This document shows, one piece after another, positions 37,352 through 55,801 of a stretch of 64,000 nt of DNA. A program made the translations under genes and the position numbers. The stretch's first letter is position 1. Every line of letters starts with the position of its first letter. The notes under the pieces were generated by a model. The model saw nothing but the letters and a program-made list of their open reading frames with translations. It ran no database searches and was not told the DNA's origin. The DNA comes from an uncultured Bacteroidales bacterium. GTDB taxonomy: Bacteria; Bacteroidota; Bacteroidia; Bacteroidales; P3. The DNA lies in assembly GCA_947167075.1 (NCBI GenBank), contig CAMVGR010000003.1, positions 1 to 64,000 on the forward strand, written 5' to 3'.

Positions 37352-38371
37352 ATGAAGAAACCGTTGCTATCGATAACGAACCTATGGTTAGCCTTTATTC
37401 TGTGTGCCATGGGTGTTGCACTGGCATCATGCCATGGAAGGTCGATTCGCGAGGCTGTGCCTGCCGAGCCCGACTATGCCGACTCGTCGATGTGGTACGT
37501 TGAGGATCGTTTGTCCGACGTAGACCTTTTCTACATCACCTCCACCGAGACGGGCGACTACACGCTGAACGGGGTTGCAATGCACCATGCCGATGTCACC
37601 CTCGACAGCATCCGCGCCCTGCTGCTAGGCGAGATGCAGGGCATAGACCACATGTATGGCGAGGGTTTTAACTTCTTTTCGCCCTACTACCGGCAGTGCA
37701 CGCTCGAGACATACACCAGCGACTCGCTGCTGGCCGCGCGGCCAACGCTGGCCATGGGTGATGTGCGTCGCGCATTTGATTACTACCTTGAACACCTCAA
37801 CGAGGGGCGCCCCTTTGTGTTGATGGGCTTCAGCCAGGGTGCGCAGGCTGTTGTGGAGCTGTTGCGCACACTGAGCGACGAGGCCTACAGTCGCATGGTA
37901 GCCGCCTATGTCATCGGTTGGAAGGTGACCGACGATGACCTCGCCGCCGCCGGTGGCCATATCCGTGCCGCACAAGACAGTGCCGACCTCGGCACCACCG
38001 TCTGCTTCAACAGCGTCCGCTCGCCCGAATGCGCCATCTCCACCATCAGCCACGGCAACCGCCTGGCCATCAACCCCGTCAATTGGCGCACCGACTTCAC
38101 GCCGGCCACTCTGGTGTACAAAGGCGATACGCTGACGGTCTGTCTCGACACAGCCTCGCTGCTGCTTTGTGTCGATGGGTACACACGCGACGACTACATG
38201 CTCCCCCTCATCGGACGCGACGGCAACTACCACCGCCTCGACATCACCCTCTATCACCAAAGTCTCCACCGCAACATGGCTCTCCGAGCCTCGCGGTGGA
38301 CGGTCGGAACATCAGCGAACATATCAAAAGGGACGTGCTTGGAAACAAGCGCGCTACCTATGGAAAACTAA
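37352..38371 (+). CDS. DUF3089-like lipoprotein with an aberrant C-terminus
   Basis: Lipobox LASC; FVLMGFSQGAQAVVELL; last ~25 codons overlap out-of-frame DUF1016 remnant sequence. Confidence 0.72.
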   Translation: MKKPLLSITNLWLAFILCAMGVALASCHGRSIREAVPAEPDYADSSMWYVEDRLSDVDLFYITSTETGDYTLNGVAMHHADVTLDSIRALLLGEMQGIDHMYGEGFNFFSPYYRQCTLETYTSDSLLAARPTLAMGDVRRAFDYYLEHLNEGRPFVLMGFSQGAQAVVELLRTLSDEAYSRMVAAYVIGWKVTDDDLAAAGGHIRAAQDSADLGTTVCFNSVRSPECAISTISHGNRLAINPVNWRTDFTPATLVYKGDTLTVCLDTASLLLCVDGYTRDDYMLPLIGRDGNYHRLDITLYHQSLHRNMALRASRWTVGTSANISKGTCLETSALPMEN

Positions 38372-38623
38372 TTGTCGCGCCACATGCGCGACAATTGACG
38401 TGGTCTCACTTCCTGCTGGTTGTGCACATTAAGGAACCGCTGACACGTGAATTCTATCTGACTATGGCAGCTGTCGAGCAGTGGAACAAGCGCACCCATG
38501 AAGCCAAGACCGTGTATGACACAATATATGACTGAGCTGTCATCCAAAGAGCTTCTGCAACGCCAGTCACACAAAAGGCATGAGGCCGCCCGCCAACATT
38601 GGGATGGCTACACGGAGGTCTGA
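38308..38623 (+). pseudogene. DUF1016/YhcG remnant (i) with internal deletion
   Basis: SEHIKRDVLGNKRATYGKLIVAP..RQLTWSH...REFYLTMAA...SSKELLQRQSHKRHEAARQHW*; module between the two palindromes missing. Confidence 0.82.
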
Positions 38624-38697: not shown

Positions 38698-39130
38698 ATG
38701 GCAGACAGCATAACTATACAGAATAACAACATTATGCCGTTGGTTGACGACTTGCGGCAGATAATCAATCAGACACGCAACCGCGTGGCCGTCAATGTCA
38801 ATGCAGAACTCACCCTGATGTATTGGCATATCGGCGAACGCATCAATCGAGAAGTGCTTGGGAACGAGCGCGCTGAATACGGGAAACAGATTGTTGCGCA
38901 GGTGGCGCGACAATTGCAAGAAGAATTTGGAGCAAAGGGATTCGACGAGAAAAGCATTCGTCGTATGATGCAATTTGCATCCTTGTTTCCTGAATTTCAA
39001 ATTGTCGCGACAATTACAATGGTCTCATTTTGTAGAGGTTATTCCTTTAAAAGACGACCTTCAACGGGAATTCTACCTGACGTTGGCAGCCTCCGAAAGA
39101 TGGTCTATTCGTCACCCTGCGCAATGAGCC
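38698..39130 (+). pseudogene. DUF1016/YhcG remnant (ii), frameshifted and truncated
   Basis: VDDLRQIINQTRNRVAVNVNAELTLMYWHIGERINREVLGNERAEYGK identical in part to 47925-48980; frame lost at palindrome 39001-39015. Confidence 0.87.
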
Positions 39131-47924: not shown

Positions 47925-48980
47925 ATGAACGACAACATAACCATACACAACAACAGACTTACGCCTCTGGTTGACGACCTGCGGAAGATAATCAACCAGA
48001 CGCGCAACCGCGTTGCCGTCAATGTCAATGCCGAACTCACCCTGATGTATTGGCATATCGGTGAGCGTATCAACCGTGAAGTGCTTGGCAATGAGCGCGC
48101 AGAATACGGGAAACGGATTGTGTCGGCAGTGTCGACACAATTGCAGTTGGAATTTGGCAGTAAGGGATTTGAGCCACGTAGCATTTGGCGGATGATGCAA
48201 TTCGCACAAGAGTTCCCTGAGTTGAAAATTGTGTCGGCAGTGTCGACACAATTGACGTGGTCGCATATAACAGAGATTTTACCCTTAAAAGACGACCTCC
48301 AGCGGGAATTCTACCTGACGTTGGCAGCCTCCGAAAAATGGTCAGTTCGCCAGCTGCGCAAGGAGATTGACGGTATGCTCTACGAGCGTACTGCCATTGC
48401 GACGAAACCAGACGAACTGATCAAACAGGAGCTGTCGGAACTGCGGGACAACAATGTCCTCACCCCGGACCTTGTCTTCAAGAGCCCCTATTTCTTGGAG
48501 TTTACAGGACTGAAGGGGATGTATAGCGAAAAGAGTCTTGAGGACAGTCTTGTGGCGCATCTGGAGCAGTTTATACTGGAGTTGGGCAATGGCTTCACTT
48601 TCGTCGAGCGACAGAAGCGGATGATTATCGACGGCGAGGACTTCTATCTCGACCTGCTTTTCTACCATCGCAGGTTGCACCGTCTGATAGCCATCGATTT
48701 GAAACTCGGTAAATTCAAGGCACAGTACAAAGGACAAATGGAGTTGTATCTGCGCTGGCTCGAAGCCCACGAGATGGAGGCTGGCGAGGAGCAGCCCCTC
48801 GGGTTGTTGCTATGCACCGAAGGTGGCGACGAGCAGATAGAGTTGCTGCAACTCGACAAATCCGGCATCAAAGTGGCGCAATATATGACCGAACTCCCCT
48901 CCAAAGAACTGCTGCAACGCCAGCTACACAAAGGCCTTGAAGCCGCCCGCCAGCGCTGGGAGAATTATCAGGAGAATTGA
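47925..48980 (+). CDS. DUF1016/YhcG PDDEXK nuclease domain protein (intact copy iii)
   Basis: DUF1016_N-type N-terminus plus FVERQKRMIIDGEDFYLDLLFYHRRLHRLIAIDLKLGKFKAQYKGQMELYLRWL nuclease core. Confidence 0.92.
   Translation: MNDNITIHNNRLTPLVDDLRKIINQTRNRVAVNVNAELTLMYWHIGERINREVLGNERAEYGKRIVSAVSTQLQLEFGSKGFEPRSIWRMMQFAQEFPELKIVSAVSTQLTWSHITEILPLKDDLQREFYLTLAASEKWSVRQLRKEIDGMLYERTAIATKPDELIKQELSELRDNNVLTPDLVFKSPYFLEFTGLKGMYSEKSLEDSLVAHLEQFILELGNGFTFVERQKRMIIDGEDFYLDLLFYHRRLHRLIAIDLKLGKFKAQYKGQMELYLRWLEAHEMEAGEEQPLGLLLCTEGGDEQIELLQLDKSGIKVAQYMTELPSKELLQRQLHKGLEAARQRWENYQEN
48117..48143. repeat. Intragenic 27-nt palindrome, copy 1
   Basis: ATTGTGTCG-GCAGTGT-CGACACAAT-TG. Confidence 0.95.
48228..48254. 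repeat. Intragenic 27-nt palindrome, copy 2 (identical to copy 1)
   Basis: ATTGTGTCGGCAGTGTCGACACAATTG, 111 bp downstream of copy 1. Confidence 0.95.
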
Positions 48981-50044: not shown

Positions 50045-51580
50045 ATGAAAGAACGATATGCACCGGACATACTCAACTGCTTGGCCAATCTGAGTAGTGA
50101 CGAGGTCTTCACCTCGCCGGAGTTGGCTAATAGGATGCTTGACCTATTGCCGCAGGAGTTGTTCCATAGTCTGAAGACTCGCTTTCTCGATCCCTGTGCG
50201 AAGAGTGGCGTCTTCCTGCGCGAGATTGCCAAGCGACTGCTGGCTGGGTTGGAAGCGGAGATTCCCGACCTACAAAAGCGCATTGACCACATTATGACCC
50301 AACAGGTCTTCGGCATCGCCTGCACCGACCTTACCGCCGAGATGAGCCGACGGACACTCTACTGCTCCAAGCTTGCCAACGGCGAGTACAGCGTCACCAC
50401 CGCCTTCCGCGACCAGCAAGGCAACCTGCTGTACGACCGCTGCCAGCACACTTGGAACGCGCAAGGCCGCTGCGAGTACTGCGGTGCCAGCAAAGGCGAG
50501 TACCTCCGCACCGACAGCCGCGAGACGTATGCCTATCCCTTTATCCATAAATCAATCAAAGAAATATTCCATAAAGATATGCAATTCGACGTAATCATAG
50601 GTAACCCACCGTACCAATTGAGTGATGGAGGACACGGAGCTAGTGCAATTCCTATTTATCAGCATTTTGTAGAAAAAGCAAAAAAATTGAATCCAAGATA
50701 CTTGAGTATGATTATCCCTGCGCGATGGTACTCTGGTGGACGTGGTCTAGATAGTTTTCGAGAGGCCATGTTAAACGACCATAGAATACGTGTGCTATAT
50801 GATTACTTTAATTCGGAAGAGTGTTTTCCTGGTGTTGACTTATCGGGTGGAATATGCTATTTTCTTTGGGACAGAGAGAACGTCGGTTTATGTAAAGTTT
50901 CGTCAGTTTTTAATGGCCAAACAACAACACTTGAACGGCCTCTCCTAGAAAAAAACGCAGCTTCATTCATTAGATTCAATCAAGCAATTACTATTGTCTC
51001 AAAAGTGAGTGAGAAACATGAAGAATCTTTTATGAATATAGTTAGTTCTAACGATCCATTTGGATATGATGTTCGTGAGGAAAACTCATATACACGTATA
51101 AAACCAAACATTAAAGAAGAAAAATTTGCTAATGCTTTAAAGATACATTATTGGGGGAAGCAAGGCAAAAGCATGGGGTATATTGAGAAAAAAACAGTAA
51201 GAAAAGGGCACGAAATGATTGAGAAAAAGAAACTCTTTATTTCACGTTCATATGGTGAAAGAGGGGAATTTCCGTATCTCGTGATAGGAAAACCTTTTAA
51301 AGGAGAGAGCGGAACTGTTTGCACTGAAACATACGTTGTTGTGGGAACATACGATGATGACAAAACAATGGATAACGTTATCTCCTATATGACTACAAAG
51401 ATGTTTCGATTTTTAGTCATGTTAAAGAAAAACACTCAAAGTGCTACAAAAAGTGTTTATCAATTTGTTCCCCTTCAGGACTTCTCCCACCCATGGACGG
51501 ACGAGATGCTGTATAAGAAATACGGCCTGACGCAGGACGAGATTGCCTTTATCGAAAGTATGATACGACCAATGGAATAG
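50045..51580 (+). CDS. Eco57I-type restriction-modification DNA methylase
   Basis: FLDPCAKSGVFLREIAKRL...FDVIIGNPPYQLSDGGHGASAIPIYQHFVEKA...ICYFLWDR. Confidence 0.9.
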   Translation: MKERYAPDILNCLANLSSDEVFTSPELANRMLDLLPQELFHSLKTRFLDPCAKSGVFLREIAKRLLAGLEAEIPDLQKRIDHIMTQQVFGIACTDLTAEMSRRTLYCSKLANGEYSVTTAFRDQQGNLLYDRCQHTWNAQGRCEYCGASKGEYLRTDSRETYAYPFIHKSIKEIFHKDMQFDVIIGNPPYQLSDGGHGASAIPIYQHFVEKAKKLNPRYLSMIIPARWYSGGRGLDSFREAMLNDHRIRVLYDYFNSEECFPGVDLSGGICYFLWDRENVGLCKVSSVFNGQTTTLERPLLEKNAASFIRFNQAITIVSKVSEKHEESFMNIVSSNDPFGYDVREENSYTRIKPNIKEEKFANALKIHYWGKQGKSMGYIEKKTVRKGHEMIEKKKLFISRSYGERGEFPYLVIGKPFKGESGTVCTETYVVVGTYDDDKTMDNVISYMTTKMFRFLVMLKKNTQSATKSVYQFVPLQDFSHPWTDEMLYKKYGLTQDEIAFIESMIRPME

Positions 51581-55756: not shown

Positions 55757-55801
55757 GTCAGACGGGTCGGACTAGTCAGACTAGTCCGACTTGTCTGACG
55801 G
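55757..55801. repeat. 9-bp tandem array GTCNGACNN x5
   Basis: GTCAGACGG GTCGGACTA GTCAGACTA GTCCGACTT GTCTGACGG. Confidence 0.95.

Follow-up and report, generated by a model that had tools for sequence, protein, structure and literature searches.

Intragenic operators, of which lac O2 in lacZ is an example, occur within a target gene and share a single conserved sequence. The REP/BIME elements that go with RAYT are extragenic palindromes sharing a consensus, and their enzyme is a Y1 transposase. Rickettsia palindromic elements (RPEs) are selfish inserts that sit in frame, again with a shared sequence, in many unrelated genes, and in the case of homing endonucleases the insertion of the gene destroys the target present in the empty allele. 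In ParB/Noc proteins, specificity was assigned to residues 173, 179, 184 and 201, the first of these going with base 1 and the last with base 6 (Jalal et al. 2020, PMC7383237). YhcG was described in 2005 as a predicted PD-(D/E)XK nuclease with a helical N domain of no assigned kind (PMC1189080). The locus considered here belongs to this last family and lies in a 64,000-nucleotide stretch of DNA from an uncultured Bacteroidales bacterium, the whole of which is called the window below.

The window gene, its palindromes and its remnants

The window holds an intact DUF1016/YhcG gene of 351 codons (47925..48980, on the + strand, as are its features, its remnants and its neighbour given below). Pfam recognized DUF1016_N (E 2.6e-46) and YhcG_C (E 5.3e-44) in the product, which places it in PF17761 and PF06250. 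The YhcG_C PD-(D/E)XK nuclease domain (residues 184-334, 48474..48926) was matched by Foldseek to Cas4, MGME1 and RecE nucleases, all of them weakly. PADLOC assigned the gene to PDC-S02 (E 2.5e-124), as it did E. coli YhcG, a PDC class denoting only a phage-defence candidate; in the literature searched, no bench reports of anti-phage activity were found for this nuclease family. Genes of the family are listed among phage-defence candidates and adjoin R-M genes, and the context in the window includes a neighbouring Eco57I-type DNA methyltransferase gene (50045..51580; Pfam Eco57I E 8.3e-35, PADLOC MTase_II).

A preliminary description of this DNA had reported an identical 27-nt pair in the intact gene, in frame and 111 bp apart, and the pair is indeed present, ATTGTGTCGGCAGTGTCGACACAATTG occupying 48117-48143 and 48228-48254. 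It occurs exactly twice in the window, such a pair was obtained by chance in 0 of 100 shuffles, and no further copy was found in the rest of the 2.27-Mb genome with up to 3 mismatches allowed. The element is a quasi-palindrome, and its proper length is 25 nt instead of 27, with 12-bp arms around a 1-nt centre; in both window copies 11 of the 12 arm pairs are Watson-Crick, the sole mismatch being G10-T16. Site 1 (48117..48141, residues 65-73) is a place that is palindromic mainly in Bacteroidales-type genes, and site 2 (48228..48252, residues 102-110) is the place conserved throughout the family. Elsewhere in the window, outside any DUF1016 gene, a perfect and a near-perfect palindrome overlap at 55766-55799 (GTCGGACTAGTCAGACTAGTCCGAC and GTCAGACTAGTCCGACTTGTCTGAC).

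Two DUF1016 fragments were recognized by reading the sequence, remnant (i) at 38300..38622 and remnant (ii) at 38698..39125, with elements at 38371 and at 38890 and 39001, respectively, as had been claimed. In remnant (ii) the first palindrome (38890-38914) keeps 9 of 12 pairs; the second copy is reduced to 39001-39015 by the loss of 11 nt within the palindrome, and the frame is shifted. Remnant (i) has one palindrome (38371-38395), around which GNKRATYGKL, the upstream flank of copy 1, is fused to TWSHF, the downstream flank of copy 2. This junction is therefore a natural product of a 111-bp deletion. Of the in-frame deletion switch proposed earlier, the deletion stands, but nothing observed speaks for a reversible switch, the sole product seen being a pseudogene.

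A palindrome and a residue-base code in the DUF1016/YhcG family

The palindrome was found in DUF1016 genes throughout the Bacteroidota and in most of the homologues sampled from other phyla. Its general form over 25 nt is A-ATT, a 7-nt variable arm, CAnTG, the complementary arm and AAT-T; A-ATT and CA-n-TG are conserved as sequence, and positions 4-10 are free to vary, with compensation. Nearly all of 80 close homologues from rumen and gut Bacteroidales are palindromic at both sites, with varied and compensated arms. A further 92 DUF1016 genes of the phylum are more distant, and site 2 (IVxxLSxQL-SWSH) is palindromic in them in unchanged codon phase; its arms have no common sequence (for example ATTGTGCACACAGTGTGTGCACAAT, TTTGGTCAACAGCCTGTTGACCAAA and ATTCTCTTCCCGACGGGAAGAGAAT) and show three to four pair types at most positions. 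At least 8 of the 12 pairs are formed at this site in 89 of the 92 genes, versus 4% of control positions. Homologues with a palindrome of varying perfection were observed in Cyanobacteria, Actinobacteria, Beta-, Gamma- and Alphaproteobacteria and, on plasmids, in Campylobacterota, with codon phase and place constant across phyla. Wolbachia phage WO gp17 and some other homologues have little palindrome, and a search of viral contigs added little.

Paralogues of one genome differ in their arms, and many genes hold two different palindromes (e.g. L012 and L014). A census of the near loci counted 90 palindromes in 97 kb of DUF1016 ORFs against 13 in 473 kb elsewhere. A dispersed repeat family in the genome of the window was considered and rejected, palindromes of this type being confined there to the DUF1016 loci. 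An RPE-like structural insertion was also rejected: gene length is unchanged at site 2 in most members, so that the palindrome is not simply an insert, although arrays are present in some members.

Several further occurrences were recorded. G504 and G532, genomes from a single genus of the phylum, have 15 and 13 DUF1016 matches, many of which are fragments, and the palindromes differ. In other Bacteroidales, DUF1016-like pieces of ~60-90 nt, or barely longer than the palindrome itself, lie outside intact DUF1016 genes and have a central, largely intact palindrome (L125:1501, L132:313, L135:1501 and L130:1501); these may have arisen by gene decay or may be mobile mini-copies. A palindrome encoding IVTPLVTQL is found in a non-DUF1016 ORF on the reverse strand (L087:1501-1525), Cas3 HD-like by sequence reading. 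One DUF1016 gene has a near-match to its own site in the leader just upstream, in a promoter-operator-like position (L202:386-410).

In the phase kept by the palindrome, wobble bases face second codon bases. Complementary wobble bases numbered 573 of 690 in the distant genes, compared with 248.8 expected from the codon usage of each gene (z=28.5); the register was taken for each gene as the best of nine, which inflates pairing, and since z=10 is reached in this way even at site 1 of the distant genes, which is mostly unpaired, the bar is z=10 and not zero. The complementary fraction was 0.895 in register, 0.15-0.31 when slid by 1-4 bases and 0.392 (sd 0.016) when columns were shuffled between genes. 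The complementarity is under constraint at the DNA level. Codon constraint, which had been raised as a possible refutation, fails to explain the palindrome, the wobble-base control ruling out codon or protein constraint alone as its cause.

Moreover, a residue-base code exists between the palindrome and the protein. Mutual information was computed between arm bases and every protein column in 172 genes (effective number 63.5), with weights for relatedness and a check of the links on disjoint pairs. Among all columns outside the palindrome-coded residues, the top links were 141-base 10, 85-base 6, 113-base 10, 89-base 8 and 116-base 9. At residue 85, R goes with G6 (73/75), K with C (35/36), Q with C (11/11) and S mostly with T (18/26), and base 6 differs in 34 of the 36 closest disjoint pairs that differ by R, K or S at this residue. 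R at residue 89 goes with C8 (99/103) and Y, N, L or Q with A8; R at residue 116 goes with C9 (30/32) and L with A9; at residue 141, K (40/40) and R (23/26) go with C10 and V or I mostly with A10. Site 1 follows residue 85 less strictly (R-G 26/43, K-C 24/26, S-T 6/6).

The code was right for 54 of 66 bases in 14 genes kept out of training, almost all of them from other phyla and among them one viral contig, E. coli and Salmonella; the majority base gave 40 and shuffled protein-site pairings 32.0 (sd 4.0, maximum 47 in 5000). Six held-out paralogues gave 17/24 (p=0.047), base 6 being correct in all six. In Methylomonas the canonical site is weak, and another palindrome of the same gene fits all five positions. 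For the window gene, R85, R89 and V141 predict G6, C8 and A10, which are the bases of the right half-site. The R85-G6 link persists with the wobble G of Val, Ala, Leu, Trp and Thr codons, and R116 pairs with the wobble C of Asp, His and Asn codons. The links thus stay with the nucleotide when the amino acid or the synonymous wobble base changes, and this speaks against a protein-protein cause alone.

The copies within a gene had been said to be more alike than those of different genes, and this was borne out in 63 distinct genes: arm identity is 0.723 within and 0.611 between genes, and identical 7-nt arms at sites 1 and 2 occur in 30% versus 4.9% (p<0.0005). Gene conversion or slippage was not upheld as the main cause of the match, the arms tracking particular residues whose codons lie outside the palindrome; the match would also be explained by a single protein that reads the two copies. 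Shared protein specificity is at least as good an explanation of the agreement as gene conversion.

The encoded protein as predicted reader of the palindrome

The covariation points to a protein that reads its palindrome. Very probably, the protein encoded by a gene binds DNA at that gene's own palindrome, with autoregulation as the likeliest use. The N-terminal DUF1016 domain would bind as a homodimer, each 12-bp half taking one subunit; we infer both the physical binding and the homodimer from sequence. In the proposed scheme, residue 85 would read pair 6, residue 89 pair 8, residue 116 pair 9 and residue 141, with 113, pair 10. The AlphaFold2 model of the N domain is helical and confident (pLDDT 87, pTM 0.81), with helices at 84-96, 100-107 (coded by the palindrome), 112-118 and 124-137, and at 141-149 in the full-length model; code-linked residues sit at or near helix starts. 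Covariation and these models together suggest three contact elements. The first is helix 84-96 (48174..48212), with R85 (48177-48179) as predicted reader of pair 6-20 and R89 (48189-48191) of pair 8-18. The second is helix 112-118 (48258..48278), which overlaps a stretch weakly matched by Pfam HTH_ParB and in which residues 113 (48261-48263) and 116 (48270-48272) are linked by covariation to bases 10 and 9. The third is the start of helix 141-149 (48345..48371), where V141 (48345-48347) would read pair 10-16.

With the site inside the gene, specificity and site would travel together in horizontal transfer and recombination, and the arms would differ between genes because the specificities differ. 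Site 1 and the palindrome arrays would be extra copies of the site. What the binding does is the least certain part of this explanation. Autoregulation is the simplest and likeliest use, to which we give slightly less than an even chance: the PD-(D/E)XK protein would dock on its own gene, as on an intragenic operator, and limit its own expression. The rarity of a copy of the site at the promoter (L202) counts against the binding explanation, as do the looser fit of site 1 to the code, the misfit of E. coli palindromes 2 and 3, the sub-significant ParB/Noc similarity and the homologues with little palindrome. A wider idea can be put forward tentatively, namely a self-addressed family in which the coding sequence of each nuclease gene would hold a private, co-evolving palindrome as an identity tag; the nuclease would thereby find, control, exclude or excise copies of its own gene or island, occupied and empty loci both being marked.

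In E. coli, yhcG is present in 4434 of 5426 genomes. The number of palindromes varies with the allele: K-12 (where they lie 39 nt apart), O104 and PN43 have three, O157, the yhcG of which is without 78 bp (two units), has one, and a further allele has two with other arms. In both allele types, palindrome 1 agrees with residue 85 of the protein that the allele encodes (K-C6 and R-G6) and the others misfit, palindromes 2 and 3 being at odds with K85; the mismatch of palindrome 3 is identical in K-12, O104, B and PN43. Copies of the K-12 palindrome ATTCGCCAGACAGTGTCTGGCGAAT are found in yhcG and at 3360632, and the gltF-yhcG block of this strain is flanked by palindromes at 3360632 and 3368970 (NC_000913.3; L289:2633 and L233:6971). 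BCE049 and 2020C08-115 lack the block but retain a single palindrome, which lies between gltD and nanQ (L286:2501-2528 and L287:2501-2528). The flanking and empty-site palindromes could reflect insertion, excision or simple deletion between direct repeats. The yhcG genes of O104:H4 and E. coli B are interrupted precisely where palindrome 3 ends (L239:5001-5880 and L240:5001-5880), and the DNA beyond the break is unrelated and holds a short ORF with a transposase annotation.

The main alternative use, which we consider unlikely, is that the nuclease targets sibling copies or empty sites. The palindrome in other DNA (empty sites, rivals or alleles) would be its target, and the element would home, excise itself or exclude relatives; the binding claim is shared with the best explanation, and only the purpose of binding differs. 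The palindrome-flanked block of K-12, the single palindrome kept by the two block-less strains and the position of the breaks in O104:H4 and B speak for such targeting, as do the palindrome-centred fragments in intergenic DNA, the palindrome in a Cas3-like ORF, the phage-defence listing and the R-M genes alongside. However, ordinary direct-repeat recombination also explains the flanking repeats, few extragenic copies were found elsewhere, and cleavage of its own site would mean cleavage of its own gene.

Much less probable is a mutational trap, in which template switching (quasi-palindrome correction) keeps perfecting a near-palindrome and leaves complementary arms without function. It would cover the sequence-free complementarity, the absent G-U preference, the palindromes surviving in fragments and the tandem copies. 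However, it does not predict that the arm bases depend on residues 85, 89, 116 and 141, the codons of which lie outside the palindrome; mismatches persist across E. coli strains, as in palindrome 3, and codon phase and place are constant throughout the phyla.

An mRNA hairpin, with the palindrome working as a transcript stem-loop in stability, pausing or translational control, has a still smaller chance. Compensatory changes in coding-strand complementarity are a classical RNA sign, and the innermost pair 12-14 is less conserved, in the manner of a loop. Yet RNA helices accept G-U pairs, and among arm mismatches G-T is as frequent as A-C (21 vs 24 in distant genes, p=0.77; 14 vs 19 in near genes), which argues for a DNA signal. 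Rfam covariance models gave no match up to E=1, and the hairpin, which also leaves the residue-base code without explanation, was rejected on these two grounds. Least probable of all is covariation within the protein only, with palindrome-encoded residues packing on 85, 89, 116 and 141 and the base links secondary: these residues do co-vary, and I(residue; amino acid given base) exceeds the null (z 1.7-6.6), but the links track synonymous wobble bases (R116 with Asp, His and Asn; R85 with five amino acids), wobble pairing across the palindrome is far above codon usage, and a pure protein contact needs no palindrome.

Comparison with described systems

If the palindrome is the binding site of the protein from the same gene, a concrete DNA target could be read from the gene alone for each member of a widespread uncharacterised nuclease family that is a listed phage-defence candidate and occurs in E. 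coli K-12. A natural data set on specificity change would then be available, in which hundreds of protein-site pairs obey simple residue-base rules. Should the self-addressed reading be true as well, thousands of such pairs would form a natural library from which a DNA-recognition code is readable.

As DUF1016 proteins would, ParB on parS and Noc on NBS use a helical DNA-binding domain, read a palindrome as a dimer and change specificity through few residues. In a Foldseek search with the N domain, the first 12 matches were ParB or Noc chains, with E of at least 0.12, below significance; the best match by TM-score was Noc on its site (7ol9, TM 0.51 over 121 columns, rmsd 3.7). Pfam HTH_ParB (PF17762) was the second match of the domain (E 0.092, 13.3 bits against a cut-off of 22.6), and PDB sequence searches gave no relative. 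Judging from the model, the N-terminal DUF1016 domain is probably a ParB/Noc-like helix-turn-helix module. Arg-to-G reading at an outer position is common to ParB (R173-G1, PMC7383237) and, as predicted, DUF1016 (R85-G6), and specificity residues are 28 apart in ParB/Noc (173/201, PMC7383237) and in DUF1016 (85/113); by analogy, we infer that 85/113 may be equivalent to 173/201. On the other side, the sequence similarity is marginal, the site is odd-centred and of another sequence, and the protein is a PD-(D/E)XK nuclease and not of ParB layout, Pfam seeing no separate N-terminal CTP-binding domain in the window protein. In addition, the DUF1016 site lies within its own coding sequence in nearly every member sampled, and its predicted specificity changes between one gene and the next; parS, by contrast, is the same throughout the bacteria.

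Intragenic operators are similar in that the site of a regulatory protein lies within coding sequence, but the DUF1016 site is in the gene of its presumed binder and co-evolves with the specificity residues. As in REP/BIME-RAYT, the palindromes are tied to the gene of a DNA-processing enzyme and have occasional extragenic copies. The family nevertheless falls outside that class: its sites are coding and without common arm sequence, the arms being private to each gene, and its enzyme is a PD-(D/E)XK-type nuclease, not a Y1 transposase. With RPEs it shares in-frame palindromes in protein-coding genes, yet the DUF1016 site occupies homologous positions within a single family and has unrelated arm sequences. 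As a homing target would be, a palindrome is present at the empty E. coli locus, but yhcG carries the palindrome too, so that it is not destroyed in the occupied one.

Palindromes in DUF1016 or yhcG are not reported in the literature searched, many journals lying outside that search, nor does that literature describe the principle of a coding sequence that embeds, and co-evolves with, the binding site of its own protein. We know of no family in which the cognate site is part of the coding sequence and co-evolves with the protein. The parts, namely a putative ParB-like reading head, a PD-(D/E)XK nuclease and an intragenic operator, are of known kinds, and it is the self-carried co-evolving site that is, to our knowledge, new.
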